Translations under genes and position numbers: made by a program
The notes under the pieces: model-generated
What the model saw: only the letters and a program-made list of their open reading frames with translations
The model's database searches: none
What the model was told of the DNA's origin: nothing
Shown here: one piece after another, positions 11,446-64,000 of the stretch
Layout of the letters: each line of letters begins with the position of its first letter
Numbering within the stretch: position 1 is the stretch's first letter
Assembly (NCBI GenBank): GCA_964036045.1
Contig: OZ038378.1
Location: forward strand, 177,342,341-177,406,340
Length of the DNA: 64,000 nt
Direction: 5' to 3'
Source: Eutreptiella sp. 'Long Island Sound 2002'
Taxonomy: Eukaryota > Euglenozoa > Euglenophyceae > Eutreptiales > Eutreptiaceae

Positions 11446-11575
11446 GGGGGGGAGGTACGGGGGGGGGTACGGGGGGGGGGGAGGTACGGGGGGGATTTAC
11501 GGCGGGGGGGAGTACGGGGGGGGTATGGGGGGTGTGTACTGGGGGGGAGGGGGGGGTACGGGGGGGTTTGGCGGT
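11445..11575. repeat. G-rich (GGTACGGGGG)n tract
   Basis: Irregular repeats of GGTACGGGGGGG on the plus strand. Similar tracts occur at 7690-7720, 12050-12167 and 22290-22345. Runs of four or more G at short spacing could form G-quadruplexes (inference). Confidence 0.8.
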
Positions 11576-41491: not shown

Positions 41492-41607
41492 CTCAGCTGT
41501 TCACCTATGGCTATCAGCAATGCAAGCAATCTGGAGTGGGGAGGACCCGTGAAACCCCGGTGGTGTGGCCCAAGACCGGGTTTTAGTGCACCAACGCGGG
41601 TTGTGAC

Positions 41608-41835
41608 TCAGTCGAAGTCGACGCCGATGTGCAGGTACTCTACACTCTCGGTGAAGATGTCCTGAAGCAAAGCGAAGAGGAGGTCCTGCTGCTCTGCAGG
41701 ACCCACAAACTCGTATATCAGGGTCGGGACCCTTAGGCGATACCAGACGAGGGGAAGTGGCACCCGGCGCACTCTCAGTCCCTGTCGGCAGGTCGAGGCT
41801 TCAATTTGCAAGGGGCAGGTCCCCGAGGCGTCCAT
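41608..41835 (-). CDS. Small ORF upstream of LINE ORF1
   Basis: This 75-codon frame from an ATG at 41835 reads protein-like (VRRVPLPLVWYRLRVPTLIY, then EQQDLLFALLQDIF) and ends ~115 nt upstream of the ORF1 start, on the same strand. It may be a remnant of a longer 5' ORF or an upstream ORF of the LINE. No family recognised. Confidence 0.35.
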   Translation of the reverse strand: MDASGTCPLQIEASTCRQGLRVRRVPLPLVWYRLRVPTLIYEFVGPAEQQDLLFALLQDIFTESVEYLHIGVDFD

Positions 41836-41879
41836 GCGTGAAGAGCATCGAAAAAAAATAGACACTCAGAAACGGGGGG

Positions 41880-44160
41880 GGGGGTGCACGTCCCAAAGAA
41901 TCAAATGAAAAGTGATTCTAAGTGACAGGATTCCAAAACTTGTGTGCATGCACAACATAACAAAGGTGTTCCTGCCCACCTGCGCAAGCACGCTGAAAAG
42001 CAAGAACACAATGGTCAGGCATGGTCCCCGTGCTTAGCCATAATCCGACGATGGCCGTCACCCCCGGTACCCCACCGGCAGGAAATCACTGTTCCCGTGT
42101 CCAGCACACGCGGCGGAACAATGGCCACAAATCATCCATAAGCGGCGAAGCCGCGCTCATGGGTCCACTAAGGCGGCGAAGCCGCCCTCTCGTGTGCGCG
42201 CACATCCCGTGCTTAGACAAGGCCGTGCTTGCACACAACGTGGTACCAAAAGAATGTATGCAACAAAAACCTGCCCATACCTCACTACCTCACCCTAACC
42301 ACACAAGCCAGCGATAGCAACATCAGCCATGGCCGAGAATCACATCAAAACAAACAGCATTGGGTTGCGGTTGCAAGCAATATAGGTATGAGTAGGAGGA
42401 ACTACCACAAGCATATCCAGCCACCTTTTCCCTCTACAATCTGAATGCAACCACGCCACATCACATTTCTGACCACAAAAACCATGGTCAGAAAAACCAG
42501 GAAAACGACGGTCACACGGGGTCGCTGTACTTGCACAGGGGGTTGAAGGCTTTTAATGTCCTGGCCGCTCTTGCGACAGGAGGGTTGGGGGTTAGCGTAC
42601 TTGTGTACTTGCACAGGGGGGGGGGGGGTTACTTTGAAGACCCCAAAGCCCAATGCAACGCTATGCCATCACATACAATCCCACAAACTGCCAGGCTGCA
42701 TTCCGTGGGCGACGCCCACAGACACTTCTGAAATCTGCATGTGCTGGCAACGGAGGGGGGCTCCACAGTGCATGCACACCATGAGCGCTAAACAAAGGCA
42801 TGCAGCCAACAAACACTTGCTGCTCAACAGCCACTCAAAAAGCCTGCAGTGTGGCAGCAAAACATCTTGCCGCCAAGTGGCAGCACAATAGGCCTGATGT
42901 GTGTGGCCTGGGTGTGCCCCAGTCGCACCCCTACTCCATAGAGGGCATACTAGTTGCACCCCGACTTCGGTAACTTGTCTCCCCATTGGATCCATGACAT
43001 ACTTACCTCATGCCAAAGTCCCCCCATGACCCATTTCCTGCTGCTCGTCGTGCGTCCCTCTTATTAGAATATGGACGTCGAAGCTGACGTAAGTGAGACT
43101 GTTCAGGGTGCTTGTAACAAAGCAGCCACAGAAGCACAATTAAGTGCCTTATGTGCCATCTTTTTGTGGATTAGATCGAGTGTGTCCTCATGGTGCACGA
43201 ACTAAAAAGGGTATGCTTAGCATTTTTCGACAGGACGTGTTTACAGCGATTGGGCTGCCAATGCCAAGACCACTGTCCATACATACATTCGACAAAATGG
43301 ATGTTCACCGCCTAAGATCTGCAGCAACATGTAGCGGGCAGCCGGGTACGCATGCATTTGGAGGAGGGAATGGGCAGGCACACACTTGCTGTAGATCAGG
43401 GAAACCAGTGCAAAGCCCCCCGAGGCCAGCAGCAGAACCACAAGCGGCGCGACGTATTGTGTGAATCGCAGGCATTTCATTCATGAAGCTTCTGCATGCA
43501 CTGCCAGTGTCAGTGCTGCATCACTATGCACAAGAAAAGCGGTGTAGGGCGGCATGACTGGGAGGCTGAGAGACGAACAGGCAGCTCTGAAGAGACTTTC
43601 TCTACATGCACATCTGTGCTATGTGGGTGTCCACTTTGGTATGAGGCATAGGTGGTTTCATGCTGAGCATTTGGGACGTTTGGTTCACAATTTGCAGCCC
43701 CTCCCGCCACCTATTGCCCCGACATATGCCCCCCCCCCCCTTCCCGGGGAAAAATGTGCACTTGCTGCTGTTCACGGCGATATAGTCAGCTGCACCCACC
43801 GTATGACAATATTACCCCTCCCCTCCATGTTAATGGCCCGGCCCATGAGTGTCTATTCCAGCTAGAAGAATCATTTTTTTGGGAAATGAAGCTCCGGATA
43901 CTTCGCTTCATTCCCCCCAAAATGACCCTTTTTGGGGGGGGCAGCGGGCGGGCCATGAGGCAACGGATACTGGGCTCGCATACGCCCCCGTGTCACAGGC
44001 GCATGGTCATCACCACACAGTTCAGCGTTTTGCCTTGCTGCACTGTAGCGCAGACCAGTTCTGTACCACTCCAGGTGGCTGCTGATTGTGGTTTGGCCTT
44101 GGCCATCTATACATTTGGGTCAGCTCGAACCCACCACCCTCCCACAGTGCCGGTTAGTCT
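41880..44160. other. No recognisable gene
   Basis: Short ORFs only. Contains the dispersed repeat shared with 27.0 kb (about 41893-41970), a GGCGAAGCCGC duplication near 42145-42190, and G/C homopolymer runs at 42608, 43728 and 43936. Confidence 0.4.
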
Positions 44161-44176
44161 CTAACCCTTGCTCTGC

Positions 44177-44345
44177 GGGTCTCTCTCTCTCTCTCTGGCC
44201 TGTCGCTCTATGGGCTTCGCTCTCTTTCTCTGTGCCTCGCCCACTCCCTCTACCTCTGTGTCTCGCCCTCCCTCCCTCTCTCTGTGTCTCCCTCTCTCTC
44301 TCTCTCTGTGTCTCGCTCTCTCTCTCCCTCCTCGCCCTTTCTTTT
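44177..44345. repeat. CT-rich (polypyrimidine) microsatellite
   Basis: Interrupted (CT)n with CTGTGTCTCGCTCTC-type interspersions on the plus strand. Confidence 0.9.
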
Positions 44346-44423
44346 TCTCCCTCTCCCCACCCTCCCCAGGGGTTTTTCTTGTGTTTCTGCCTCATCTTAC
44401 ACCCCCCTACTTGCTGTCCCCTA

Positions 44424-45074
44424 TCAGGCATATCGCCGTTCGCATGGGGGTGTGCTCAGCAGCGTGTAGAGGAACCACACAACGTCTCCGGATACCGGGT
44501 CTGTTTGCCTGAAGAGCGTTCTTTGGAACAGCCTTAATAGATTAGCTCGGCCCGTCAGCCACACATGCATGCAGTCTCCATTTCTGCTCACAGAGGAGGG
44601 CACCGCTCTGTGTCCCTCTGCCGTCGGACAGTGGAGGATCGCCTCCCACTGGAACGGGTGCCACTTGCCTGCACTCTTGGGTCGCCACTGAACCTGCATG
44701 TTCGTCACAGCCTGGGTCTTCAGGGTCCAGTTGATTTGGACCATCACCGAGTAGAGTTCTTGGTTGTTCATCAGCAATGGGTCTCCATGATTGTACACAA
44801 TTTCACAGTGCATCCTGGTGCTGTGTGGTTGGTCCAGTCGGAGCGAGCGGAGCCAGATCTGCTGATTGCGGGCCCAGGCCATAGTGGTCAGCTCGGCATT
44901 GACAGCTCTCAACCCTTCGTCCGCTATGGCGTCTAGCTGGCTCAGTGCTTGCACCTTGAAATGCTGGCGTTCTTGCTGGGGCTTGGCCTTCTTTGGGGCT
45001 GGATTAATTTGTGTGTAGGGGCCATGTCGATGTTGATGCGGCCCTCGCTTCTTCCATGGCTTTCCCGGCGGCAT
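44424..45074 (-). CDS. Unrecognised ORF (~216 aa)
   Basis: The frame starts at ATG 45074 with a basic, Lys/Pro/His-rich N-terminus, then a helical region (ALSQLDAIADEGLRAVNAEL). Next comes alpha/beta sequence rich in Trp (MHCEIVYNHGDPLLMNNQEL, WTLKTQAV, VQWRPKSAGKWHPFQWEAIL) and a C-terminus with HVWLTGRANLLRLFQRTLF. Composition and length without stops argue for real coding. It sits between the LINE and the 46-54 kb transposon, on the same strand as both. It could be the N-terminal ORF of another mobile element. I do not recognise the family. Confidence 0.4.
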   Translation of the reverse strand: MPPGKPWKKRGPHQHRHGPYTQINPAPKKAKPQQERQHFKVQALSQLDAIADEGLRAVNAELTTMAWARNQQIWLRSLRLDQPHSTRMHCEIVYNHGDPLLMNNQELYSVMVQINWTLKTQAVTNMQVQWRPKSAGKWHPFQWEAILHCPTAEGHRAVPSSVSRNGDCMHVWLTGRANLLRLFQRTLFRQTDPVSGDVVWFLYTLLSTPPCERRYA

Positions 45075-45223
45075 CACGCCAGGGAGCCCTTCCGCGACAG
45101 GACGCGGGGTTTGTGTTTGTGTTCAGTCGTTGCCGTTGCCAAGCCTTTTTGCTGCCGTACTTTGTGACAGAACGCGGAGCTCACGTCAAAATTCCCCTGC
45201 GTCAGAACGCAGATTTCGGGCGT

Positions 45224-45544
45224 TCAGGCATTAGCAGGTATGAAACTTGTGGAAATACCGCAGTCATGATGCGGGGATGACGGGCACGGGTGTTGGCGAC
45301 CTTGTCCAGGGTTTCTGCTTTTCTTGAACTTTCGCCTCTTATGCTGTCGCCTTGTGTCACTCACATCCGTGCTGAAGGACAGTGATTCAGCTACAGACAT
45401 TTCTTCCCCCCATCCTCCCACTTGCATGTACCCTGCCCCTATTTCCTCACTGCCCGAAGTGCACGAGTTGCATGATTCTGTTGCGCATGGCGCTGGTTCC
45501 CCGGAGGCTTCCCCTGTCAGTTCATCACTGTCCATGGGTACCAT
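45224..45544 (-). CDS. Unrecognised acidic-then-basic ORF (106 aa)
   Basis: ATG-started frame with an acidic Ser/Glu-rich N-terminal half and a basic patch RRQHKRRKFKK resembling a nuclear localisation signal. It lies ~150 nt upstream of the ~216-aa ORF on the same strand but in another frame, so the two could be exons or frameshifted parts of one gene. Confidence 0.3.
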   Translation of the reverse strand: MVPMDSDELTGEASGEPAPCATESCNSCTSGSEEIGAGYMQVGGWGEEMSVAESLSFSTDVSDTRRQHKRRKFKKSRNPGQGRQHPCPSSPHHDCGISTSFIPANA

Positions 45545-45649
45545 GCCCAGGGACGACCAGAGCAGCTATGGGTATAAAGTCTGAAGTCTGAAGTCTGATT
45601 TGGCATGTCGTGTTGCGGACCCACATTAGAGCACATCCAAGCAAAAGTC

Positions 45650-46075
45650 TGATAAAAGTGCAAAAGTGCAGCCCCCCCCCCCCCCCACACACACACACAG
45701 GAACTTGGGTTCAGGAAAATGGTTATAACAGTGCAGACCCCCCCCCCCAAGACACATAGCAACTTCACAGGAAAATGGGGATAAAAGTGCAATACCCCAC
45801 CCCCCCATAGACACAGAGGAACTTCACCTCGGGAAAATTGTGCGTCAGGGAAAATAGGTTGGAATGGAAAATGTGGAGAAGGGAACACTAGGAAAAGTCT
45901 GATACAAGGCCCCGCCCCCAAAACACACAACCATTCAGTTCAAGAAAATGATGGGTTGGGTTGGGGGGAAAACGGGGTTTGAAAATGCGGAAAAGGCAAT
46001 TCTGGGAACAATGTAGCACAAGTACCCCCCCCCCCCCCCAAAAAAAAACCCATACCTCTTGGAAAATGGGGCGTT
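45650..46075. repeat. C-run-containing ~80-bp minisatellite, 4-5 copies
   Basis: Each copy has ATAAAAGTGCA-like sequence, a run of 7-15 C, a MCACA stretch, then GGAACTT and GGAAAATGG. Copies are centred near 45670, 45735, 45800, 45910 and 46030. It lies just downstream (minus strand) of the transposase-bearing gene. Confidence 0.7.
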
Positions 46076-46228
46076 GGGGAAAATGTGGGAAAAGGGAAAA
46101 CCAAGGGAACTGGGAAAACGTTGCATACTGATGCTTGCTAATGTATCAATGGACCTGCAGAGAAGGAGAACATGGGGATTGGCACAGCAGGCATGCAAAA
46201 GCACAATACCACTGCAACCCCAACACTG

Positions 46229-49200
46229 TCATTCATCAATGAGTCCGTCCATGTCATCCACCGGCACTTGGGAACATGGTTGTGAGCTGCTGGGTGGTGC
46301 AGCAGAACGGGTAACACGATCCGTTGGGGGGACCCAGTCACAGTCCATCTGGGCTAGCAAAGGCAACAACTCTTGCATAGCAAGTTCTCGGGCTTCTCCC
46401 CGGGTCTTGCTATTTGGCACCTTCACACCCATGCTTGCCAAGCAATCACAGATGCGAGCGCGTGTCCGGTCACGCAATGTGCCTGATTTTGCAGCACATA
46501 CCAACTTGGCCTGTGCACGGGCCAAGGCACGCTTTGGGTCGGACTTCCGTGGTGCCACTGCCTCCTCTTCACTATTGTTTTCAGCAGCCTCAGCTGCATC
46601 ATCCACAACCTGCACCACTGCCTCACCACACGGTCTTGGATCCTTGACGAAGCATGTATGGCAAACCAGACATGTGTTGCACCAGATGCGCACAGATTGC
46701 CTGCACATTGCACAGTCCATGCCCCTTCGGAAAGTGAAGAAGTCATGGTTGCCACCATGCTGAGCAGGACTACCATCTGGTTCGACCAAAGTGCCCTCAG
46801 TGTGCTCAGACGGGGCTTGTCGGTCAGCGCGTCTGCGCGTTGCGCCTTGACAAGCCAGTGGCACTTCCGACCCCCCAAAAGATGGCAAAATGTCACCATC
46901 GTCTGCCACTGCAGCCTCCCCTTCTAGGCACTGCAACATGGCCGCTTCCACTGATGTACGCGGATCAATGCGATTCGAAACCCTATGCCGGGGACGCACA
47001 TCGAAGCGTGCATTGGCTGCCAGCTTGCTGGCTACCTCGACACCCTGCCCCTTCGCCCACTGCCGCAAAGGTGGCAGATTACAATGCAAAGCCATGCACA
47101 TGCTAAGGACATGTGTGTCCTCCATATCATGCATACTGTTGGTGAACCTCCCACGCAACGAAATGGCACGCTCAACAGCAGCCTCAGCAGGGCAATATGT
47201 GCGCAGCAATGCCAAAACACGCCAAACATTCACCCATTGGACATGCTCCCGCTCCGGCGTCAAGGCCTCCCACATCCGGGACATGGGGGTCTTGGCGAAG
47301 GTCCGCACGACATGCTCCTTGAAGGATTCCCACTCTTCCAATGCACGAGCAGCATTAACATGCGCAGCTGCCAGTTCAGCATGGTGTGTGCCCATGAACT
47401 GCTTCAGCAGATCCACTCCAAATGTGGGTCGATCAGCCGCTGGTAGAGCGAGCCAACGGCCGTGGTCAAGCAACACAGCACACTCAAGAACACCCCGGGG
47501 GTCAATGGTACCCTGTCCCTCCCTGATGCCAGCAAGCAGTGTGTCTGTGACTGCCCGTGCCTCTGTGGCTGGAAAAGGGGGGCTGGTTGTGCACCTCTGG
47601 CCATCGGCATCAAACCGGACCAATTCAACGCCATGCCGAGCACCTGTCACAGTTTGCTCTTTGAATTGAGTCCACCCTGGCCCCTCCTCCCTCGCCACCT
47701 TTTCCACCCGTGCCTGTAACATTTCGGTTGCCTTGGTCAAGTGGGCACCTGTTGGTGCATGCAACTGTGCAACGTTGTTGAAGCTGCGCGTACCATGTAG
47801 TATGTCCCCGTATACCACTGCCCATGACAGCAAACCTGCATCATGGCAATCCTCCCACACATCCTCCTCCTTGGTGGTGAGGTGCGTTTTGGAATCCAAA
47901 TGCCTCGCCACCCATGGCACATTGGCCAAGAACACCTTGTTGCGACGGGCATTTGCCTCGGACCACCGGATACGGTGACTAGCAGGGATCAAACGCAACC
48001 CGCTGCGTGTATCTGGTCTGGTGTTCTCTTGGACACACCTCTCGAGGTCCTTCCACTGGCGCGCACCGTTGTACAATGCACGTTGGCGACCCACAGCTGC
48101 CAGGTAGTCAGCATGCACTTGGCCGGCTGCCTCCAAGGCAAGGCCTAGCTTGCGCTGGACCACGTGGCATGGCTCACCCAAGGGGGTTAGCAAGGACAGC
48201 CACTTCACAAGCATGGCAAACACATTGTGCTCCATTGCCGACACATCAACAGCTTGCCTTGCAGTGGCACCACGCACACCAAGGTTAGAGGCACCATCCA
48301 CCGCAAAAGCCACAACCTTCTGAGCCCACCAGGCACGATCAAGCATCCAGGACAGCAGCACTGCCTCCACCTGTGCCGTCACCTCTTGTGCCTCCCCTGA
48401 AGCTACATCCACCACACCAAGGAACACCTCACACATTCCCCCCGGCCCAGTGCCTGGAAAGAGGAGCAGGATGGCATACTCATTGATGCGATGCCGTTGC
48501 CGGTCAGATCCATCCAACAACAAGGCAATGAACAATGCTCTTTGCAAGGTCTCTGACACACCATCTTGCATGGCGCCATGCATTGCGACCATGGCCCTCT
48601 CAACTATCCATCGCCGAGAGGCATGATGGCCCGGTTCGGAGGTAAACGCACAATGCAGAAGAATGCGTTCACTGATTGCACGGATGGATGTGCACATGCG
48701 GAGGCCAATGTACACCTCCACCAAGCGCGACAAAATGGCTGCCACCGCATCGCTCATAGGTACACCGAGGTCCACGCCCTCACCCCTAATGAACACAGTG
48801 CTCCTCTCTGCCACATTGACTGCACATGCAGATGCAGATGCATTGGGGCACAGTGCCCAAAAACGTTCTGCACAATGCACCCGGAAACTCTCCTCAGCGG
48901 CCAAGTGGTGGCGGCCAGGATTATCAATATTCTTGCGGCTGCTGGTCGTGCCACGTGACACACCAAGGTGACCCTCCAGGACATCTTTACGCCATCCCTT
49001 TGGTGTAGCAATCATCATACGCATGCCCATGCCATATGTCCCATTCACCAAGGCTGCCGCAGCCTTCGGTGGCCGCTTCACCCCAGGACAATCCGTTTCA
49101 GCAGCCCATGAACAACATATGCACATTACACCCCCTTGGGCAGTGAACTGCAACTGCCAATGCTCATCCACAAACGCTTGCAGTGTCTTTGGCCCTGCTG

Positions 49201-50800
49201 TCTGTTGCCTGGGGGCTGCCCCCATCATCACAGAAAAAGCATTGCTCCCCGTTGCTGCCAATGCAGCAGATCGGGCTCTATCCTGTTCTATGGACTCGGA
49301 AACAGACCGGTGTGACATGCCCTGACCTGCATGCCTCTCATCCCACTGCTTCTCATGACGTGCCCGGAGATGAGCCTGGTGGGCTTGCACACGGACCTGC
49401 AGATGCTGTTTCACCCGTACCCTTTGCTTTTGTACAAGCTTTGCCACAGGTTCAATGAACTCGGGGGTGGGCTGCACATCCCCCACATGTGTGGCATATC
49501 CGGGATCACCCGCTGGCAGCGCCATGGCTGGCAACTGGGTGTCACTTGGCACGCTCGGGGCATGCCTGTTGACAGTTGGTGTTGCAAACTGTGAGGGGGA
49601 GGGTTGTGCGTCCCCAATGTGGTTGGTAGACTCTGGTTCACCTGTTGCCAGCGCCATGGCTCGCAACGGGGTGATACTTGGCATGCTCCGGGCATGCCTG
49701 TCGACAGTTGTTGCTGCAGACTGCAGACGATTGCTTTGTGAACCGCCCTGTGACAGACCCACCATCTCCGTGGGAGTACGCTCATACAATAGGAATGTCA
49801 CCTTTCGTGAAGTGGCTGGGGGCCGTCCCCTGCTCACGGACGAATCATCACACAACCACCACACATCGCGAACTAAAATGTGAGCAATAAAGTGCCCTTG
49901 CTCCCTAGTTGGTCCAACATGTAGCACCATGGCCCGCAGGGACCAATGGTACCCATTGATATCCACAAACTCATGATCCACCGTCAAGCTGTGAAGCTGT
50001 TGATTGTGGACATGGAGTGGAGCCCACTTGTTGGACACTAGTGACGATAGTACAATGGCCTCCTGGAGATCCCCCCCACAGCCACATGGGGGGGCGTTTG
50101 AAGGGGGGCCCAACGAACGGCCCCTCATTCCCTCCCTCATTCGCACCCGCACGCTCTGGCCCTGGTTAGTAACATGGAGGACCTGGGCGGGCATTCCCAA
50201 CTCACCTCCAGCCTGGTGGACTTTCACGTCACACACTGGGCACCGCTGCCACCATTGCTCATGAGACAAGCAGTCTGACAGAGAACGAACACCAGCACGA
50301 ACCAGTTTCGGTACCATGTGCTTCCAACACTCAGCCATCTCGGACTGCTGCATCCACTCAAACTTGGGAGGCCTCCTGACACATTGACACCGACCACTAC
50401 ACTGGCACAGAGTAACAGTTGGCTGTCCCTCATCCGCCAGCAGGCACGCAACGGCATGTGGACGGTACACAGCACCTGTCATACCTGCCACAACGTCACC
50501 CCAACATGTAGCCCACACTGCCACATCATCTGGGCACTCATCATGGAAGGCCTCCTGTCCCCCAGAGGCTAACAGGAGGCATTGCAACGTTGTACCAAGC
50601 CAACACCAATTGTGACTTGGGGGGTTCGCCATGCCACATGGCCGTTGCCGTGCTCCACCTTGCGGACCGCCACTAACCTGCAGGCAGGCGGAAGGCATGT
50701 TGCTGCAAGAACTTGCGGTGTGAAGCAGGCAAACTCTGCCACTCTCCACGGCCGTAAAGCACCACCAATCGCCTATCCCCCTTCCATGGGCAAGTAGCAT
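46229..50800 (-). CDS. USP-like deubiquitinase fused to hAT transposase (1,523 codons)
   Basis: Numbered from the ORF's first ATG; the first ~45 residues overlap the preceding ORF and are probably not translated. A ubiquitin-specific protease Cys box HNWCWLGTTLQCLL has Cys66. Cys-rich pairs CQCSGRCQC (132-140) and CPVC (187-190) look like the USP zinc fingers, and the His box has GHF (His303), WWLCDDS (Asp318/319) and FLLYERT. A Pro-rich linker with a ~45-residue internal duplication follows. Next comes a TTF-like zinc finger (VMCICCSW..LVNGTYG) and a hAT RNase H-like core with Asp763 (LLLDGSDRQ) and Asp835 (AVDGASNLG); the 72-residue spacing is normal for hAT. The C-terminal dimerisation helix has CPAEAAVERAISLRGRF, then Cys pairs (CAMC, CNTC, CHTC). 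It would bind and cut transposon ends in the nucleus; the USP part could remove ubiquitin. Confidence 0.65.
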   Translation of the reverse strand: MLLAHGRGIGDWWCFTAVESGRVCLLHTASSCSNMPSACLQVSGGPQGGARQRPCGMANPPSHNWCWLGTTLQCLLLASGGQEAFHDECPDDVAVWATCWGDVVAGMTGAVYRPHAVACLLADEGQPTVTLCQCSGRCQCVRRPPKFEWMQQSEMAECWKHMVPKLVRAGVRSLSDCLSHEQWWQRCPVCDVKVHQAGGELGMPAQVLHVTNQGQSVRVRMREGMRGRSLGPPSNAPPCGCGGDLQEAIVLSSLVSNKWAPLHVHNQQLHSLTVDHEFVDINGYHWSLRAMVLHVGPTREQGHFIAHILVRDVWWLCDDSSVSRGRPPATSRKVTFLLYERTPTEMVGLSQGGSQSNRLQSAATTVDRHARSMPSITPLRAMALATGEPESTNHIGDAQPSPSQFATPTVNRHAPSVPSDTQLPAMALPAGDPGYATHVGDVQPTPEFIEPVAKLVQKQRVRVKQHLQVRVQAHQAHLRARHEKQWDERHAGQGMSHRSVSESIEQDRARSAALAATGSNAFSVMMGAAPRQQTAGPKTLQAFVDEHWQLQFTAQGGVMCICCSWAAETDCPGVKRPPKAAAALVNGTYGMGMRMMIATPKGWRKDVLEGHLGVSRGTTSSRKNIDNPGRHHLAAEESFRVHCAERFWALCPNASASACAVNVAERSTVFIRGEGVDLGVPMSDAVAAILSRLVEVYIGLRMCTSIRAISERILLHCAFTSEPGHHASRRWIVERAMVAMHGAMQDGVSETLQRALFIALLLDGSDRQRHRINEYAILLLFPGTGPGGMCEVFLGVVDVASGEAQEVTAQVEAVLLSWMLDRAWWAQKVVAFAVDGASNLGVRGATARQAVDVSAMEHNVFAMLVKWLSLLTPLGEPCHVVQRKLGLALEAAGQVHADYLAAVGRQRALYNGARQWKDLERCVQENTRPDTRSGLRLIPASHRIRWSEANARRNKVFLANVPWVARHLDSKTHLTTKEEDVWEDCHDAGLLSWAVVYGDILHGTRSFNNVAQLHAPTGAHLTKATEMLQARVEKVAREEGPGWTQFKEQTVTGARHGVELVRFDADGQRCTTSPPFPATEARAVTDTLLAGIREGQGTIDPRGVLECAVLLDHGRWLALPAADRPTFGVDLLKQFMGTHHAELAAAHVNAARALEEWESFKEHVVRTFAKTPMSRMWEALTPEREHVQWVNVWRVLALLRTYCPAEAAVERAISLRGRFTNSMHDMEDTHVLSMCMALHCNLPPLRQWAKGQGVEVASKLAANARFDVRPRHRVSNRIDPRTSVEAAMLQCLEGEAAVADDGDILPSFGGSEVPLACQGATRRRADRQAPSEHTEGTLVEPDGSPAQHGGNHDFFTFRRGMDCAMCRQSVRIWCNTCLVCHTCFVKDPRPCGEAVVQVVDDAAEAAENNSEEEAVAPRKSDPKRALARAQAKLVCAAKSGTLRDRTRARICDCLASMGVKVPNSKTRGEARELAMQELLPLLAQMDCDWVPPTDRVTRSAAPPSSSQPCSQVPVDDMDGLIDE

Positions 50801-51950
50801 GCCATGCCCCAGTGCGGACCACTACAGGTTGCCTATCGACACGGTACCTATGCCCCGGACGGCTAATGCCATCTGGGCACTGCCTTCTCCCTGGTCTGCC
50901 ATGTGGACCACTGCCAACGCCTCCCTCTTCCACCCAGATCTCACCACCCACGTGCCGCCCCGGGGAGAACACTACTGACCACGGGGTACTATCAAACCGA
51001 TGTTGATGGGGAGCTGTCGTCTCATTGCATGATAGCTGTATTGTAGTCCATGTGAACCACTTTGGTACCAACTTCCTTGCAATGCGGTTCACCATCATCA
51101 CAAGGGGGCCATGCTCCTGTGTCCCTTGCACAAGCCGCGACCGGCGACAATCCCCTTTCGCTGTATGTCCTTTGCTCCCACCGACACCCAACTGCGGCCT
51201 TCGCAAGGAGAACTGTCCTAACGTCTCTCTAGTGTACAACAGTGTCCCCATTATGCCATGCAAGACACACAAAGGTGCTACCTGCAACGAGCGGTCGTAG
51301 CTGGCGCCCCGGTAATGTCCTCCCGGCCGATGCCCATCACGTTCGGCCTCACCAACGACGATCACGCATGCTTGTTCACAAGCTTCCTCCATCTCCTGGA
51401 TTGTACGGTACACTTTGGCTTCTCCCATGCCCGGACTCCAAACTGCAGCAGACGTCACAGCAGTGTCCGGGCCAAACCTTGAATCCATTATTTTGGGTGT
51501 GTTTGTACGCAACAATACAACCTTCCCATCGATGTGGTGGGCGAGATGTCGAAAATGGTCGGGCCTTCCCCCCCAGGGCTTCCCTTCCCAATTATTCGCT
51601 TCCAAGGCCCTACAAACACTTAGAGCACTCTCCTTAACCTCTATCCCACACCGTTCCCTGTACATTGTGGTTGCCTGGACTCGGAGGTCCACTCCAGTTA
51701 AGGGGGTCTCACTGCGGAGCGCATGGAGGCTGAGGGCAGTTGCATAAAAAAAACATGCACCGGCGACATACTCATCACGTGCCAACCGTAACTTCAGTTG
51801 CCGGATGGTAGGCAGCTCCCTACTGGCAGGAGCCTTGATTTTATCCTCCTCAACCTTCTGGTTAGGATTGTCACAGTCAATTGCTGCGGCCCCATCCGCC
51901 CCTAGCCGCACACACTTTGCAGCAGGCATGGGGTTGGGATCCCTGGGCAT
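50673..51950 (-). CDS. OTU-like protease + TET/JBP-like dioxygenase domains (425 codons)
   Basis: Residues ~55-220 fit an OTU cysteine protease: GACFFYATAL (Cys66), a helix, PWGGRPDHFRHLAHHI (the conserved WG-x-x-x-h-x-x-h-A segment) and GGHY (His212). Residues ~285-400 fit a double-stranded beta-helix 2-oxoglutarate/Fe(II) dioxygenase of TET/JBP type: FTWTTIQLSCN, PHQH (His315), SVVFSPGRHVGGEIWVEE, then GAWHATCPWKGDRRLVVLYG with distal His384 and the 2OG-binding Arg393 or 394. TET/JBP enzymes oxidise 5-methylcytosine or thymine in DNA. The metal motif H-x-D reads H-x-H here (317), so activity is uncertain. No TET Cys-rich domain precedes it. The stop lies inside a CAGGTTAGT sequence (50680-50672) that looks like a splice donor, and the USP domain follows at once in another frame. 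Confidence 0.55.
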   Translation of the reverse strand: MPRDPNPMPAAKCVRLGADGAAAIDCDNPNQKVEEDKIKAPASRELPTIRQLKLRLARDEYVAGACFFYATALSLHALRSETPLTGVDLRVQATTMYRERCGIEVKESALSVCRALEANNWEGKPWGGRPDHFRHLAHHIDGKVVLLRTNTPKIMDSRFGPDTAVTSAAVWSPGMGEAKVYRTIQEMEEACEQACVIVVGEAERDGHRPGGHYRGASYDRSLQVAPLCVLHGIMGTLLYTRETLGQFSLRRPQLGVGGSKGHTAKGDCRRSRLVQGTQEHGPLVMMVNRIARKLVPKWFTWTTIQLSCNETTAPHQHRFDSTPWSVVFSPGRHVGGEIWVEEGGVGSGPHGRPGRRQCPDGISRPGHRYRVDRQPVVVRTGAWHATCPWKGDRRLVVLYGRGEWQSLPASHRKFLQQHAFRLPAG

Positions 51951-53797
51951 TGCTTTCTTGCCTGGGGGGGGCTGTTACATGGCTCTGAGCCATCCGTGCT
52001 GGACTGACTAGGTGCCACGACAGTGCATGCCGTCCCCATACTGCTATCCATATCTGGGGATGCCATTTCACTATCTTGCCCACTCAATGAAACCTGTGGT
52101 GGGCGCTGTGCTAGGGGCACAGGGGATCCCTGATCAGAGAGTGACTCAGCACCGCAACCGGGGTGTGGGGTGAGGCATTCTTCTGCAGCACCTGGCCCTA
52201 TGTTCTCCATTACCTCTGGGCCCTGGTTCTCATTGTCAGCATGCACACCGCCTGCAACTTCGGGTGCACCTGGGGGTCCACATCGCAGCGCACAGGCTGG
52301 GACGTTGGACGCACTTGGATCACCTCTGCGGGGATCCTGGTCAGTAGTCATAGGAGTGGAGGCAGGGGGGGGTGGGGGGGGGGGTTGTTGTGCTTCACCA
52401 AGGGTGCCAGCTGTGCCTATGGCCTCCTTTGTGCCCCCTTCCAGGTGCATAGCACATGCATCGTTGGGCGTACCGTTGTCATCAGGGACACCGACAAATG
52501 CATCTTGGGATCCGAGTCGCAGCGCACAGGCTGGGACGTCGGACTGGCTTGGATCGCCTCTGGGGGGATCTTGGTCAGGTGTCGGGGGTCCTGGGGGGGG
52601 GGGGGGGGGTTGCACCCCAGCGTCTGCCATGGCTTCCAATAGAAGCTCCATGGCCTCCTCCCCTGCATCATCTGTCCATGCATTATTCACCACACGGACA
52701 CCAGCATGCAGGTATCCCAAGTGGTTGCGGGGTACCTCGGGGCTGAAAGGGGTGCACCTCAGTATCACCTCGCTACTCTCTTGCATGGGAATCCGCATGG
52801 ACTCTGCAAAGTGGCGTCCCACCGTATAGGCAGCCACCAGGCTCTCCTCTGACAGGGGCTCCCGCCGTTGCTCCCCCAAGCCTTGCATCGCAATGCGGAC
52901 ACACCGGGCAATGCCATGGCACGTTATCATCAGTGCTTGGTCGAACTGTTGCTGTCTCGTCAGCCGCACCGTCATAGGTGCTGGATTGGGTGGGATGCAG
53001 GGTTGAGGTCCAGGACTGCAAGTGGACGTTGAGCTTTCGGGCAACAGGGAGCTCCGTCGACTACCCCCGGATCCAGGGGTCCCCTGGCCAGGGGGACCTG
53101 TGCCACCGACTGGCGCTGACACTCTTTGTCGACCACCCCCGGATCCTGGGGTCCCCTGTGCTTTCGATCCCTCCCCGGCTGGCAACAGTGAGTTCCGGCG
53201 GCTCGCAGATGCCACCAAATCACTTGTGAATGGCCGTGCTACACTTGCTGCCTGTGGCCAAAAGTACTGCATCCTGCCCAAGGGTACTCTCCGTACTTTC
53301 TCCACATACATCCTCTCCACAGTGGGTGTGGGGTACTTGGTCTCCCCCCTCCAGAAAGGCCATGAGTCCACAAGTGGCAAGGCATACACAATGTCATTCC
53401 ATGCCTCTAGCCAAGCAACTTTGCTAACGCTCATGGGGTGTCCACCAATGGCCCCTCGTCGACTCCCCACTTTGCCAAGGCCTTCCTCATACTTTTTTAT
53501 CCGGTCCCAGAGGCCTGAGGCTACCTTCTGGTACTCCACAACAACACCTCCATCCTCCCGCGTGCACTTTGGACTGCCCTCTTGGCTGTACATCAGGCGG
53601 CACAGTGCTGCTAGTCCATGGGTATGGACGACATCAAGGGAACATGTCCCCATGTACATTGCCAACTTCCTGTAATAGATGGCCTCCTGTTTTGGTGGGG
53701 CATGCCACTCTGCCTCGCCGAGGGCTAGACGGAATCCCATTTTCATCTGGGCAGCTTCCATGGTGTCCCATGGGGGCCATTCAGGATGCTGGGCCAT
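51902..53797 (-). CDS. Unrecognised N-terminal protein of composite transposon (631 aa)
   Basis: Starts at ATG 53797, with an in-frame TAA five codons upstream, so this start is plausible. Residues 1-190 are alpha-helical and well ordered (EAIYYRKLAMYMGTCSLDVV, VAWLEAWNDIVYALPLVDSW) without a domain I know. A Gly/Ser/Pro-rich region with duplicated GTPGSGG units follows. A second helical block (~290-390) contains FDQALMITCHGIARCVRIAM. The C-terminal third is disordered with a ~65-residue duplication (DQDPPRGDPSQSDVPACALR, later DQDPRRGDPSASNVPACALR). The frame ends at 51902, 49 nt inside the OTU ORF, just past an eight-base homopolymer. I infer it is the N-terminal part of the same product. 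Confidence 0.5.
   Translation of the reverse strand: MAQHPEWPPWDTMEAAQMKMGFRLALGEAEWHAPPKQEAIYYRKLAMYMGTCSLDVVHTHGLAALCRLMYSQEGSPKCTREDGGVVVEYQKVASGLWDRIKKYEEGLGKVGSRRGAIGGHPMSVSKVAWLEAWNDIVYALPLVDSWPFWRGETKYPTPTVERMYVEKVRRVPLGRMQYFWPQAASVARPFTSDLVASASRRNSLLPAGEGSKAQGTPGSGGGRQRVSAPVGGTGPPGQGTPGSGGSRRSSLLPESSTSTCSPGPQPCIPPNPAPMTVRLTRQQQFDQALMITCHGIARCVRIAMQGLGEQRREPLSEESLVAAYTVGRHFAESMRIPMQESSEVILRCTPFSPEVPRNHLGYLHAGVRVVNNAWTDDAGEEAMELLLEAMADAGVQPPPPPPGPPTPDQDPPRGDPSQSDVPACALRLGSQDAFVGVPDDNGTPNDACAMHLEGGTKEAIGTAGTLGEAQQPPPPPPPASTPMTTDQDPRRGDPSASNVPACALRCGPPGAPEVAGGVHADNENQGPEVMENIGPGAAEECLTPHPGCGAESLSDQGSPVPLAQRPPQVSLSGQDSEMASPDMDSSMGTACTVVAPSQSSTDGSEPCNSPPQARKQCPGIPTPCLLQSVCG
51964..51971 (-). 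other. Homopolymer (C8 on coding strand) at frame change
   Basis: The open frame of the 631-aa ORF and that of the OTU ORF differ by one base, and only this C8 run lies between the last plausible upstream residues and the first downstream ones. One extra base here would join the frames. It is a typical site for a sequencing indel, a slippage mutation or programmed slippage. Confidence 0.6.
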
Positions 53798-53989
53798 TTG
53801 TAGGAGGCTGCCTTAGCACGGTTAAAGGTTGTGGCCTCTTGCGTGGTCCACAAGGTGCAGTTCGATGGGCACTTGTTGGTGACCACAACTCAGGAGGACA
53901 ATCTGGTCCCGGACCCCGATACTCGAAGTGGTAGGCCGATTCCTCCTTGGGTTCCTGCGCGGGCCCACTTGATGCCACCGCGTGGTATG

Positions 53990-54515
53990 AACGTAGACCC
54001 TAGTCGAGGCGCAACGGCCGGGGACCAAGGGCAGACTTCTGCGCCTCAAGGGCTAGCAGTAGCTGGGGAGGGGTGAGGGATGGACGACGACCGAGGTCGA
54101 GGCGCGGCGGCCAAGGACCAAGGGCGAACTCCTGCGGCTCGGCGGCCAGCAGTGGTTGTGGTGGGGTATGGACGACGACCGAGGTCGAGGCGCGGCGGCC
54201 AAGGACCAAGGGCGAACTCCTGCGGCTCGGCGGCCTGCAGTGGTTGTGGTGGGGTATGGACGACGACCGAGGTCGAGGCGCGGCGGCCAAGGACCAATGG
54301 CCAACTCCTGCGGCTCGGTGGCCTGCAGTGTGTTGGTGGGGGGACGGCTAATGACCGTGGTCGCGGCGCTGTGGCCGAGGGCCAAGGGCCAACTTCTGTG
54401 CCTCAAGGGCAAGCAGTAGGTGGGTTGGGGGATGCGGGATGCCCCTGGTTGAGGCGCTGCGGCCAGAGACCGAGGGGCAACTCCTCCAGCTCAGAGGCTA
54501 GCACAGGGTCGTAGA
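53990..54515. repeat. 88-bp minisatellite, about 6 copies
   Basis: TGGACGACGACCGAGGTCGA recurs at 54081, 54169 and 54257 (period 88), with more diverged copies on both sides. The array begins ~190 bp upstream of the 631-aa ORF start. Confidence 0.9.
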
Positions 54516-57500
54516 CGCTATGGTCAAGACCACAGACAACTTCTTCACCTGAGTGGTGAAGTTGGTGGCAGAAAGGTCGTAACAAAGTCTGCACGAAGAG
54601 GGGTGAAATATTTCACGGAGGCCTCAAATAATTCACGGAAGGGCATAAATAATTCACGGAGGGGTCAAATAATTCACGGAGGGGCATGAATAATTCACGG
54701 AGGGGTGAAATAATTCACGGAGGGGGGTAAATAATTCACGGAGGGGTCAAATAATTCACGGAGAGGCATAAATAATTCACGGAGGGGTGAACTAATTCAC
54801 GGAGGGGGGTAAATAATTCACGGAGGGGTCAAATAATTCACGGAGAGGGGTAAATAATTCACGGAGGGGTGAAATAATTCACGGACAGGCATAAATAATT
54901 CACGGAGGGGTCAAATAATTCACGGAGAGGCATAAATAATTCACGGAGGGGTGAAATAATTCACGGAGAGGCATAAATAATTCACGGAGGGGTGAAATAA
55001 TTCACGGAGAGGCATAAATAATTCACGGAGGGGTGAAATGATTCACGGAGAGGCATAAATAATTCACGGAGGGGTCAAATAATTCACGGAGAGGCATAAA
55101 TAATTCACGGAGGGGTCAAATAATTCACGGAGAGGGCATAAATAATTCACGGAGGGGTCAAATAATTCACGGAGAGGCATAAATAATTCACGGAGGGGTG
55201 AAATAATTCACAGAGAGGCGTAAATAATTCACGGAGGGGTGAAATAATTCACGGAGAGGGGTAAATAATTCACGGAGGGGTGAAAAAATTCACGGAGAGG
55301 GGTAAATAATTCACGGAGGGGTGAAATAATTCACGGAGAGGCATAAATAATTCACGGAGGGGTGAAATAATTCACGGAGAGGGGTAAATAATTCACGGAG
55401 GGGTGAAATAATTCACGGAGAGGGGTAAATAATTCACGGAGGGGTCAAATAATTCACGGAGAGGCATAAATAATTCACGGAGGGGTGAAATAATTCACGG
55501 AGAGGCATAAATAATTCACGGAGGGGTCAAATAATTCACGGAGAGGCATAAATAATTCACGGAGGGGTGAAATAATTCACGGAGAGGGGTAAATAATTCA
55601 CGGAGGGGTGAAATAATTCACGGAGAGGGGTAAATAATTCACGGAGGGGTCAAATAATTCACGGAGAGGGGTAAATAATTCACGGAGGGGTCAAATAATT
55701 CACGGAGAGGGGTAAATAATTCACGGAGGGGTGAAATAATTCACGGAGAGGGATAAAAAATTCACGGAGGGGTGAAAGAATTCACGGAGAGGCATAAATA
55801 ATTCACGGAGGGGTGAAAGAATTCACAGAGAGGGGTAAATAATTCATGGAGGGGTGAAATAATTCACGGAGAGGGGTAAATAATTCACGGAGGGGTCAAA
55901 TAATTCACGGAGAGGCATAAATAATTCACGGAGGGGTGAAATAATTCACGGAGAGGCATAAATAATTCACGGAGGGGTCAAATAATTCACGGAGAGGCAT
56001 AAATAATTCACGGAGGGGTGAAATAATTCACGGAGAGGGGTAAATAATTCACGGAGGGGTGAAATAATTCACGGAGAGGGGTAAATAATTCACGGAGGGG
56101 TGAAATAATTCACGGAGAGGCATAAATAATTCACGGAGGGGTCAAATAATTCACGGAGGGGGGTAAATAATTCACGGAGGGGTGAAATAATTTACGGAGA
56201 GGGGTAAATAATTCACGGAGGGGTGAAATAATTCACGGAGGGGGGTAAATAATTCACGGAGGGGTGAAATAATTCACGGAGAGGCATAAAAAATTCACGG
56301 AGGGGTCAAATATTTCACGGAGGGGGGTAAATAATTCACGGAGGGGTCAAATAATTCACGGAGAGGGCATAAATAATTCACGGAGGGGTGAAACAATTCA
56401 CGGAGAGGGGTAAATAATTCACGGAGGGGTGAAATAATTCACGGAGAGGCATAAATAATTCACGGAGGGGTCAAATAATTCACGGAGAGGGGTAAATAAT
56501 TCACGGAGGGGTCAAATAATTCACGGAGAGGGGTAAATAATTCACGGAGGGGTCAAATAATTCACGGAGAGGGGTAAATAATTCACGGAGGGGTCAAATA
56601 ATTCACGGAGAGGGGTAAATCATTCACGGAGGGGTCAAATAATTCACGGAGAGGCATAAATAATTCACGGAGGGGTGAAATAATTCACGGAGGGGGGTAT
56701 ATAATTCACGGAGGGGTGAAATAATTCACGGAGAGGGGTAAATAATTCACGGAGGGGTGAAATAATTCACGGAGAGGCATAAATAATTCACGGAGGGGTC
56801 AAATAATTCACGGAGGGGGGTAAATAATTCACGGAGAGGCATAAATAATTCACGGAGGGGTGAAATAATTCACGGAGAGGGGTAAATAATTCACGGAGGG
56901 GTCAAATAATTCACGGAGAGGGGTAAATAATTCACGGAGGGGTGAAATAATTCACGGAGGGGGGTAAATAATTCACGGAGGGGTGAAATAATTCACGGAG
57001 AGGGGTAAATAATTCACGGAGGGGTGAAATAATTCACGGAGAGGCATAAATAATTCACGGAGGGGTCAAATAATTCACGGAGGGGGGTAAATAATTCACG
57101 GAGAGGCATAAATAATTCACGGAGGGGTGAAATAATTCACGGAGAGGGGTAAATAATTCACGGAGGGGTCAAATAATTCACGGAGAGGGGTAAATAATTC
57201 ACGGAGGGGTGAAATAATTCACGGAGGGGGGTAAATAATTCACGGAGGGGTGAAATAATTCACGGAGAGGGGTAAATAATTCACGGAGGGGTGAAATAAT
57301 TCACGGAGAGGGGTAAATAATTCACGGAGGGGTCAAATAATTCACGGAAGGGCATAAATAATTCACGGAGGGGTGAAATAATTCACGGAGAGGGGTAAAT
57401 AATTCACGGAGGGGTGAAATAATTCACGGAGAGGGGTAAATAATTCACGGAGGGGTCAAACAATTCACGGAGAGGCATAAATAATTCACGGAGGGGTGAA

Positions 57501-58245
57501 ATAATTCACGGAGGGGGGTAAATAATTCACGGAGGGGTCAAATAATTCACGGAGAGGCATAAATAATTCACGGAGGGGTGAAATAATTCACGGAGGGGGG
57601 TAAATAATTCACGGAGGGGTGAAATAATTCACGAAGAGGCATAAATAATTCACGGAGGGGTCAAATAATTCACGGAGAGGGGTAAATAATTCACGGAGGG
57701 GTCAAATAATTCACGGAGAGGGGTAAATAATTCACGGAGGGGGTAAATAATTCACGGAGGGGTCAAATAATTCACGGAGAGGGGTAAATAATTCACGGAG
57801 GGGTGAAATAATTCACGGAGAGGGGTAAATAATTCACGGAGGGGTGAAATAATTCACGGAGAGGCATAAATAATTCACGGAGGGGTCAAATAATTCACGG
57901 AGAGGGGTAAATAATTCACGGAAGGGTCAAATAATTCACGGAGAGGGGTAAATAATTCACGGAGGGGTGAAATAATTCACGGAGGGGGGTAAATAATTCA
58001 CGGAGGGGTGAAATAATTCACGGAGAGGGGTAAATAATTCACGGAGGGGTCAAATAATTCACGGAAGGGCATAAATAATTCACGGAGGGGTGAAATAATT
58101 CACGGAGAGGGGTAAATAATTCACGGAGGGGTCAAATAATTCACGGAGAGGCATAAAGAATTCACGAAGGGGTGAAATAATTCACGGAGAGGCATAAATG
58201 ATTCACGGAGGGGTGAAATAACTCACGGAGAGGCATAAATAATTC

Positions 58246-58263
58246 ATGGCGCCATGGCGCCAT
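58246..58263. repeat. 18-bp palindrome in satellite, copy 1
   Basis: ATGGCGCCATGGCGCCAT is a perfect palindrome. It interrupts a satellite monomer between two ATTC tetranucleotides, as if a 16-bp ATGGCGCCATGGCGCC had been inserted with a 4-bp duplication. Confidence 0.9.
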
Positions 58264-61200
58264 TCACGGAGGGGGGTAAATAATTCACGGAGGGGTGAAA
58301 TAATTCACGGAGAGGGGTAAATAATTCACGGAGGGGTGAAATAATTCACGGAGGGGGGTAAATAATTCACGGAGGGGTCAAATAATTCACGGAGGGGGGT
58401 AAATAATTCACGGAGGGGTCAAATAATTCACGGAGAGGGGTAAATAATTCACGGAGGGGTCAAATAATTCACGGAGAGGGGTAAATAATTCACGGAGGGG
58501 TGAAATAATTCACGGAGAGGGGTAAATAATTCACGAAGGGGTCAAATAATTCACGGAGAGGGGTAAATAATTCACGGAGAGGGGTAAATAATTCACGGAG
58601 GGGTGAAATAATTCACGGAGAGGGGTAAATAATTCACGGAGGGGTGAAATAATTCACGGAGAGGGGTAAATAATTCACGGAGGGGTCAAATAATTCACGG
58701 AAGGGCATAAATAATTCACGGAGGGGTGAAATAATTCACGGAGAGGGGTAAATAATTCACGGAGGGGTCAAATAATTCACGGAGAGGCATAAATAATTCA
58801 CGGAGGGGTGAAATAATTCACGGAGGGGGGTAAATAATTCACGGAGGGGTGAAATAACTCACGGAGAGGCATAAATAATTCACGGAGGGGTCAAATAATT
58901 CACGGAGAGGGGTAAATAATTCACGGAGGGGTGAAATAGCTCACGGAGAGGGGTAAATAATTCACGGAGGGGTCAAATAATTCACGGAGAGGGGTAAATA
59001 ATTCACGGAGGGGTGAAATAATTCACGGAGAGGGGTAAATAATTCACGGAGGGGTGAAATAATTCACGGAGAGGGGTAAATAATTCACGGAGGGGTCAAA
59101 TAATTCACGGAAGGGCATAAATAATTCACGGAGGGGTGAAATAATTCACGGAGAGGGGTAAATAATTCACGGAGGGGTGAAATAATTCACGGAGAGGCAT
59201 AAAAAATTCACGGAGGGGTCAAATAATTCACGGAGAGGGGTAAATAATTCACGGAGGGGTCAAATAATTCACGGAGAGGGGTAAATAATTCACGGAGGGG
59301 TGAAATAATTCACGGAGGGGGGTAAATAATTCACGGAGGGGTGAAATAATTCACGGAGAGGGGTAAATAATTCACAGAGGGGTCAAATAATTCACGGAAG
59401 GGCATAGATAATTCACGGAGGGGTGAAATAATTCACGGAGAGGGGTAAATAATTCACGGAGGGGTGAAATAATTCACGGAGAGGCATAAATAATTCACGG
59501 AGGGGTGAAATAATTCACGGAGAGGCATAAATAATTCACGGAGGGGTGAAAAAAATCACGGAGAGGCATAAATAATTCACGGAGGGGTCAAATAATTCAC
59601 GGAGAGGGGTAAATAATTCACGGAGGGGTGAAATAATTCACGGAGAGGGGTAAATAATTCACGGAGGGGTGAAATAATTCACGGAGGGGGGTAAATAATT
59701 CACGGAGGGGTGAAATAATTCACGGAGAGGGGTAAACAATTCACGGAGGGGTCAAACAATTCACGGAAGGGCATAAATAATTCACGGAGGGGTCAAATAA
59801 TTCACGGAGAGGGGTAAATAATTCACGGAGGGGTGAATTAATTCACGGAGAGGGATGAATAATTCACGGAGGGGTGAAATAATTCACGGAGAGGGGTAAA
59901 TAATTCACGGAGGGGTCAAATAATTCACGGAAGGGCATAAATAATTCACGGAGGGGTGAAATAATTCACGGAGAGGGGTAAATAATTCACGGAGGGGTCA
60001 AATAATTCACGGAGAGGCATAAATAATTCACGGAGGGGTGAAATAATTCACGGAGGGGGGTAAATAATTCACGGAGGGGTGAAGTAATTCACGGAGAGGC
60101 ATAAATAATTCACGGAGGGGTCAAATAATTCACGGAGAGGGGTAAATAATTCACGGAGGGGTGAAATAATTCACGGAGGGGGGTAAATAATTCACGGAGG
60201 GGTCAAATAATTCACGGAGAGGGGTAAAAAATTCACGAAGGGGTGAAATAATTCACGGAGAGGGGTAAAAAATTCACGGAGGGGTGAAATAATTCACGGA
60301 GAGGGGTAAATAATTCACGGAGGGGTGAAATAATTCACCGAAGGGCATAAAAAATTCACGGAGGGGTGAAATAATTCACGGAGAGGGGTAAATAATTCAC
60401 GGAGGGGTGAAATAATTCACAGAGAGGCATAAATAATTCACGGAGGGGTCAAATAATTCACGGAGAGGGGTAAATAATTCACGGAGGGGTCAAATAATTC
60501 ACGGAGAGGGGTAAATAATTCACGGAGGGGTGAAAAAATTCACGGAGGGGGGTAAATAATTCACGGGGGGGGTGAAATAATTCACGGAGAGGGGTAAAAA
60601 ATTCACGGAGGGGTCAAATAATTCACCGAAGGGCATAAATAATTCACGGAGGGGTGAAATAATTCACGGAGAGGCATAAAAAATTCACGGAGGGGTGAAA
60701 TAATTCACGGAGAGGCAGAAATAATTCACGGAGGGGTGAAATAATTCACGGAGAGGCATAAATAATTCACGGAGGGGTCAAATAATTCGCGGAGAGGGGT
60801 AAATAATTCACGGAGGGGTCAAATAATTCACGGAGAGGGGTAAATAATTCACGGAGGGGTGAAATAATTCACGGAGGGGGGTAAACAATTCACGGAGGGG
60901 TCAAATAATTCACGGAGAGGGGTAAATAATTCACGGAGGGGTCAAATAATTCACGGAAGGGCATAAATAATTCACGGAGGGGTCAAATAATTCACGGAGA
61001 GGGGTAAATAATTCACGGAGGGGTGAAATAATTCACGGAGAGGGGTAAATAATTCACGGAGGGGTGAAATAATTCACGGAGAGGCATAAATAATTCACGG
61101 AGGGGTGAAAGAATTCACGGAGAGGGGTAAATAATTCACAGAGGGGTTAAAAAATTCACGGAGGGGGGTAAATAATTCACGGAGGGGTGAAATAATTCAC

Positions 61201-61465
61201 GGAGGGGGGTAAATAATTCACGGAGGGGTGAAATAATTCACGGAGAGGCATAAATAATTCACGGAGGGGTCAAATAATTCACGGAGGGGGGTAAATAATT
61301 CACGGAGGGGTGAAATAATTCACGGAGAGGGGTAAATAATTCACGGAGGGGTCAAATAATTCACGGAGAGGCATAAATAATTCACGGAGGGGTGAAATAA
61401 TTCACGGAGAGGCATAAATAATTCACGGAGGGGTGAAATAACTCACGGAGAGGCATAAATAATTC

Positions 61466-61483
61466 ATGGCGCCATGGCGCCAT
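61466..61483. repeat. 18-bp palindrome in satellite, copy 2
   Basis: Same palindrome and same flanking monomers as copy 1, 3,220 bp away. The right flank differs by one base (CACAGA for CACGGA). Confidence 0.9.
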
Positions 61484-63186: not shown

Positions 63187-63204
63187 ATGGCGCCATGGCG
63201 CCAT
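63187..63204. repeat. 18-bp palindrome in satellite, copy 3
   Basis: Same palindrome and context, 1,721 bp after copy 2. Confidence 0.9.
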
Positions 63205-63432
63205 TCACGGAGGGGGGTAAATAATTCACGGAGGGGTGAAATAATTCACGGAGGGGGGTAAATAATTCACGGAGGGGTGAAATAATTCACGGAGAGGGGT
63301 AAATGATTCACGGAGGGGTCAAATAATTCACGGAGAGGCATAAATAATTCACGGAGGGGTGAAATAATTCACGGAGAGGCATAAATAATTCACGGAGGGG
63401 TGAAATAACTCACGGAGAGGCATAAATAATTC

Positions 63433-63450
63433 ATGGCGCCATGGCGCCAT
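63433..63450. repeat. 18-bp palindrome in satellite, copy 4
   Basis: Same palindrome and context, 246 bp (six 41-bp dimers) after copy 3, marking a local 246-bp duplication. Confidence 0.9.
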
Positions 63451-64000
63451 TCACGGAGGGGGGTAAATAATTCACGGAGGGGTGAAATAATTCACGGAGG
63501 GGGGTAAATAATTCACGGAGGGGTCAAATAATTCACGGAGGGGGGTAAATAATTCACGGAGGGGTGAAATAATTCACGGAGAGGGGTAAATAATTCACGG
63601 AGGGGTCAAACAATTCACGGAGAGGGGTAAATAATTCACGGAGAGGGGTAAATAATTCACAGAGGGGTGAAATAATTCACGGAGGGGGGTAAATAATTCA
63701 CGCAGGGGTGAAAAAATTCACGGAGAGGGGTAAATAATTCACGGAGGGGTCAAATAATTCACGGAAGGGCATAAATAATTCACGGAGGGGTGAAATAATT
63801 CACGGAGATGGTAAAAAATTTACGGAGGGGTCAAATAATTCACGGAGAGGCATAAATAATTCACGGAGGGGTGAAATAATTCACGGAGGGGGGTAAATAA
63901 TTCACGGAGGGGTGAAATAATTCACGGAGAGGCATAAATAATTCACGGAGGGGTCAAATAATTCGCGGAGAGGGGTAAATAATTCACGGAGGGGTGAAAG

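Follow-up and report, generated by a model that had tools for sequence, protein, structure and literature searches.

The window analyzed here is a stretch of 64,000 nt from Eutreptiella sp. 'Long Island Sound 2002' (assembly GCA_964036045.1, contig OZ038378.1, positions 177,342,341–177,406,340 of the forward strand). Its minus strand contains three overlapping open reading frames (ORFs), ORF1 to ORF3 (Table 1), carrying the motifs of an OTU-like peptidase, a 2-oxoglutarate (2OG) oxygenase-like domain, a USP-like peptidase and a hAT-like transposase. This is the order noted beforehand by the original prediction, which read the three ORFs as possibly a single transposon gene with a TET/JBP-like dioxygenase. 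As argued below, the locus probably belongs to a high-copy family of hAT-kind DNA transposons with two genes, designated A (ORF1 plus ORF2) and B (ORF3). Save where a profile, a structure search or a paper is given in support, the motif names used for ORF1–ORF3 are those that we presume to apply.

Table 1. Features of the putative element, with positions numbered from the first nucleotide of the window (aa, amino acids).
Feature	Position	Strand	Extent or residues	Remarks
ORF1	51902..53797	-	631 aa	N-terminal portion of gene A
ORF1/ORF2 overlap	51902..51950	-		Frame shifts here in window copy
ORF2	50673..51950	-	425 aa	OTU-like followed by dioxygenase-like domain
OTU-like peptidase domain	51246..51818	-	ORF2 aa 45–235	Cys aa 66 (51755–51753), His aa 212 (51317–51315)
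2OG-oxygenase-like domain	50676..51167	-	ORF2 aa 262–425
Oxygenase-like residues		-	H315-Q-H317 (51008–51000); GGEIWVE aa 335–341; distal H384 (50801–50799); R393/R394
ORF3	46229..50800	-	1523 aa as called	USP-like part, then hAT-like transposase
USP-like peptidase domain	49781..50632	-	ORF3 aa 57–340	C66 (50605–50603), His303 (49894–49892), Asp318 (49849–49847)
Cys-rich segment before transposase core	48941..49183	-	ORF3 aa 540–620
hAT-like transposase core	47051..48703	-	ORF3 aa 700–1250
Transposase core residues		-	D763 (48514–48512), D835 (48298–48296), R945-W946 (47968–47963), E1210 (47173–47171)
C-terminal Cys/His cluster	46649..46714	-	ORF3 aa 1363–1384

Searches of protein clusters, each scoring the 7976 to 7996 candidates that had the most words in common with the query, revealed that the locus is one of many: ORF2 matched 46 clusters totalling 263 sequences and the transposase region 37 clusters totalling 576 sequences (table sums; cluster members may include fragments, and the counts may span one genome or several). 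The full-length ORF3 query matched only two clusters, because its search words came from residues 1–500 and lengths were restricted. Identity to the window was around 42–99% for ORF2 and 62–98% for ORF3, and we sorted the relatives, compared as proteins and not as DNA, into a near (>90%), a middle (ca. 75–90%) and a far tier (ca. 45–75%). Long frames with the motifs recur in representatives of clusters that amount to hundreds of sequences, which is more than expected by chance. No relatives were found in viral contigs (queries: transposase region and ORF2) or in phages (query: ORF2), and in prokaryote genomes the transposase region retrieved one stretch with the pattern that was not a relative; Rfam gave no match.

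Linkage of the parts was examined by comparing each of the three ORFs with the full set of 83 fetched proteins by blastp; 20 of the proteins matched more than one ORF. The ORF1/ORF2 boundary is crossed in one frame by 15 of the 83 (P0003, P0004, P0013, P0016, P0017, P0020, P0023, P0028, P0035, P0039, P0041, P0043, P0044, P0046, and P0072), which follow ORF1 to aa 621–623 and ORF2 from aa 1, indicating that the split at 51950–51902 is a frame change in the window copy. Fusions of ORF2 and ORF3 occur in four proteins, each with a different junction: from the OTU part to the USP part in P0043, from the oxygenase-like part to the USP Cys region in P0045 or to the transposase in P0072, and from the OTU part to the transposase in P0083, a far-tier protein with 47% identity in its ORF2 part and 65% in its ORF3 part. 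The four are best interpreted as elements with this order of parts that have undergone internal deletions or changes of frame. Together, the read-through and the fusions indicate that the parts travel together, and the comparison of proteins did not find the ORFs elsewhere as unrelated neighbors, the outcome that had been named as contrary to the original prediction. The OTU-, USP- and hAT-like domains therefore appear, with good support from sequence comparison, to be a linked unit of a repeated element.

The possible single gene of the original prediction was not supported, given that ORF3 is a second frame; ORF1 and ORF2 are split by a frame change in this copy. The ending of ORF2 (e.g., FRLPAG, or FRLHAGA in P0015 and P0025) recurs in 10 of 47 other proteins compared, two of them around 50% identical, the remaining proteins being cut or out of frame at that point; ORF2 and ORF3 are thus normally separate frames. 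A spliced join between them, judged by eye, was discarded: a CAG|GTTAGT lies where ORF2 ends, but with the acceptors seen in frame the introns would measure only 19 or 25 bases. ORF3 likely starts at the ATG at 50632 (aa 57), 40 bases past the ORF2 stop codon and directly before the USP Cys box, which would give a product of 1467 aa. As for ORF1, the Pfam search gave no match and no known domain; its relatives by blastp include P0025 (50% identity over aa 229–439) and P0046 (72% over aa 290–621).

Pfam was searched with the window ORFs, trimmed pieces and each member of sets A1 (n = 42) and A2 (n = 38), and UCH was the only family above cut-off. Weaker matches were dismissed as apparent noise: DUF6246, seen in 4 of 42 members (best E 0.032), and isolated matches in each set. 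The best PHROGs match (E 0.12) was of unknown function, and neither ORF2 nor profiles A1–A4 found a credible match among PDB sequences (best E 0.15).

ORF2 contains the OTU-like motifs GACFFYA, WEGKPWGG and GGHYRGA, whose context around the Cys and His we take to be that of OTU peptidases. In an alignment of 28 rows, the Cys is kept in 24 of the 26 rows with a letter there and the His in 22 of 27. A Foldseek search with the structure model of ORF2 retrieved OTU peptidases in all of PDB rows 1–18, although the best E was 0.074 and the model was poor. This part of the original prediction has support from a structure search on a weak model and from the conserved Cys and His, and aa 45–235 are accordingly called OTU-like.

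The USP assignment stood in part. The Pfam family UCH (PF00443) matches ORF3 aa 255–339 (50038–49784; E 4.7e-6, 26.8 bits against a cut-off of 23.9), covering the His-box half alone (profile positions 184–254 of 254), and is matched by 4 of the 38 members of set A2, the window included. The Cys box, NWCWLGTTLQCL, was recognized by eye outside this match, and P0045 and P0078 also retain its Cys. As this region is not covered by any far-tier protein, the USP part is documented only in copies around 80–97% identical. The linker between the USP-like part and the transposase holds a direct repeat of 129 nt on the minus strand (49463–49723; spacing 132, 78% identical). Both peptidase-like domains lie inside large multidomain proteins, and viral deubiquitinases are often also polyprotein processors (PMC9741609; statements on this and the other papers cited refer to the portions of their text available), as would be expected if the OTU- and USP-like peptidases processed the proteins of the element and not host ubiquitin. 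We consider this unlikely, on the indirect argument that processing would presumably need fewer than two unrelated peptidase classes.

Residues essential in the Hermes transposase (D180, D248, R318, W319, and E572; PMC6027215) have candidate counterparts, in the same order, in ORF3: D763 and D835 in 20 of 20 rows each, R945 and W946 in 20 of 21 each, and E1210 in 19 of 20, the columns having been picked by eye. Spacing in ORF3 and Hermes, respectively, is 72 vs. 68 residues between the two Asp, 110 vs. 70 from Asp to Arg, and 375 vs. 324 from Asp to Glu. Among the 17 far-tier proteins, 40-residue bins were 93% kept for the first Asp, 81% for the Glu and 61% for the second Asp, the other full bins ranging from 43 to 84%. 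Upstream of the core, the three Cys of CICC in the Cys-rich segment are conserved in 14 of 14 rows; we take this segment to be zinc-finger-like by eye, and no profile matched it. In the C-terminal cluster, 13 to 15 of the 14 or 15 rows retain the Cys columns, and the cluster is, by eye, a probable zinc site.

Several results limit the assignment of the locus to a hAT-kind transposon. Within aa 700–1259 of ORF3, 254 of 559 columns also reach 95% identity, and the five residues are thus not exceptional alone. No hAT profile was matched, with a hAT Pfam match in 0 of the 38 A2 members, and the structure model of ORF3 was poor: Foldseek returned no hAT row, and Foldseek and VIA were both uninformative. 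Finally, no pair of terminal inverted repeats (TIRs) with a target site duplication (TSD) was found on the left (41500–46229) or right side (53797–55600), where the TSD of 5–8 bp had to be exact and up to 2 mismatches in 11 bp were allowed, although the true ends may lie outside these intervals or be lost. The hAT claim of the original prediction is accordingly sustained by five ordered residues and not by profile or fold, and the identity of the core as hAT-like is supported to that extent.

These same results are pertinent to two further explanations. The transposase could belong to another DDE superfamily, such as KDZ, since Pfam gave no hAT profile match and fungal KDZ transposons also carry TET/JBP genes (PMC12730594). 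The order in which D, D, RW and E stand in ORF3 is nevertheless that of Hermes. The contexts RW and VER-x-x-S, which we take to be hAT hallmarks, also count against another superfamily, and we regard such an assignment as improbable. A host multigene family, or a nest of elements instead of a single transposon, would account for the failure to find a TIR/TSD pair and for neighbors consisting of a satellite array and a long interspersed nuclear element (LINE). However, the clusters amount to hundreds of sequences, and the ORF2–ORF3 fusions have four different junctions, including one from the far tier, making this explanation quite unlikely as well. We therefore retain the two-gene hAT-kind transposon, and we infer its mobility from its copy number.

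The oxygenase-like part of ORF2 has the motif set APHQHRFD, GGEIWVE and GAWHATCPWKGDRR. We compared it in 14 rows including the window, with shorter or longer pieces left out by length. The first His and the second Gly of GGEIWVE are present in all 14 rows, the distal His in 13, and the Arg nine and ten residues past it in 12 each. The facial triad of TET/JBP enzymes consists of HxD/E plus a distal His (PMC12730594), but the HxD/E iron motif appears in none of the 14 rows, which have HQH (12), HQN (1) or HQY (1); an Asp five residues past the first His, in 12 rows, is out of the HxD register. This part has no match in Pfam, PHROG or PDB, its structure model has a confidence (pLDDT) mostly under about 40–50, and patterns for an HxD...GGELW family retrieved nothing in viral contigs. 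Thus, the motif layout fits the predicted TET/JBP dioxygenase but, without a profile or PDB match and with HxD/E in 0 of 14 rows, we do not file it as such.

The oxygenase-like part may work like TET/JBP enzymes with an altered metal site, or it may be a binding module. The chances are only slightly below even that it is no DNA oxygenase at all, being instead a degenerate binding jelly-roll or an unrelated fold with chance likeness in motifs. The prevalence of HQH over HxD/E, the failure of sequence searches to match it and the low pLDDT speak for this explanation; on the other hand, the first His, distal His and Arg are conserved in 14, 13 and 12 of the 14 rows, respectively, and the GGE-W-V-E spacing is constant between copies around 55% identical. 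A bolder possibility, to which we give a tentative minority weight, is that a hAT lineage confronts two layers of host control, with OTU and USP peptidases acting beside a base-acting oxygenase whose His-x-Asp became His-x-His, resulting in a new DNA chemistry or a reader of modified bases.

The right side of the element is followed by 88-bp repeats and then by a satellite array. Around five copies of the 88-bp repeat lie just upstream of ORF1 (54072–54503), and they are possibly subterminal repeats of the element. The adjoining satellite, with units of 41/82 bp, extends from 54592 to 63995, reaching the window end, and has the word TCCGTGA in common with short TTTCCGTGAT arrays at 1884–2410. 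Downstream of ORF3, a 232-codon ORF on the minus strand (44427–45122) has no Pfam match. Further on, a LINE-like element occupies 35005–41500 of the same strand; its ORF at 35008–39039 contains Pfam reverse transcriptase, zf-RVT and RNase H domains, and the upstream ORF at 39635–41500 has no Pfam match. The plus strand contains a 387-codon ORF (27966–29126), Ulp1/C48 peptidase-like by eye and with no Pfam match at E 0.1, while GC-rich tandem arrays with 42/84-bp units span 8009–11449, with 74.5% GC in 8001–10000.

If the two-gene transposon is correct, the product of gene A would comprise an N-terminal region with no known domain, followed by the OTU-like peptidase and the oxygenase-like domain, and that of gene B a USP-like peptidase fused ahead of a hAT-like transposase. 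The transposase would cut and rejoin the element; the USP would deubiquitinate the transposase and nearby proteins, sparing them from degradation; the OTU could act on other ubiquitin signals, for example on silencing factors; and the oxygenase-like domain could act on methylated bases of the element DNA, or have turned into a binding module. The observation made in the original prediction is thus partly confirmed, and its core reading, that a transposon has gathered enzymes which counter host control, is plausible; the element might also, as proposed there, change its own methylation and strip ubiquitin from proteins. If true, a hAT element with both kinds of enzyme, one deubiquitinase being fused to the transposase, would point to clearance of the transposase through ubiquitin as a major means of host control. 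Likewise, OTU and USP would be a natural pair for asking which ubiquitin signals restrain transposition, and the conserved HQH would represent a deviation, open to testing, from an enzyme motif that otherwise hardly varies.

DNA-oxidizing enzymes are borne by some transposons and deubiquitinases by others. Among the titles and abstracts of the matches listed, with Repbase reports outside the scope, we found no hAT element combined with OTU or USP; two deubiquitinase-like domains beside a hAT-like transposase would therefore be the new part, not found in print. The combination had been thought undescribed, which may hold for the addition of OTU and USP but not for hAT plus TET/JBP, already published for the TET+ hAT7 elements of Puccinia rust fungi (Kojima, 2025; PMC12730594). 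In these, a single DNA transposon encodes a TET/JBP dioxygenase along with the hAT transposase, but they have a fungal host, reported 7-bp TSDs and a TET/JBP with HxD (HxE in the PE type), and the main text of that paper uses neither "OTU" nor "peptidase". Fungal KDZ elements (Kyakuja, Dileera, Zisupton) also associate a transposase gene with a TET/JBP gene, although their transposase is of another superfamily and no deubiquitinase is noted for them in the text available (PMC12730594). The closest parallel for the peptidases is in Helentron/Helitron elements, which carry one or two deubiquitinase-class domains, OTU included; they differ in being rolling-circle elements with no classical transposase, in that their second peptidase is VTD and not USP, and in that the available text notes no dioxygenase (PMC9741609). 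In those elements, VTD and OTU were proposed to stop the degradation of transposition proteins (PMC9741609).

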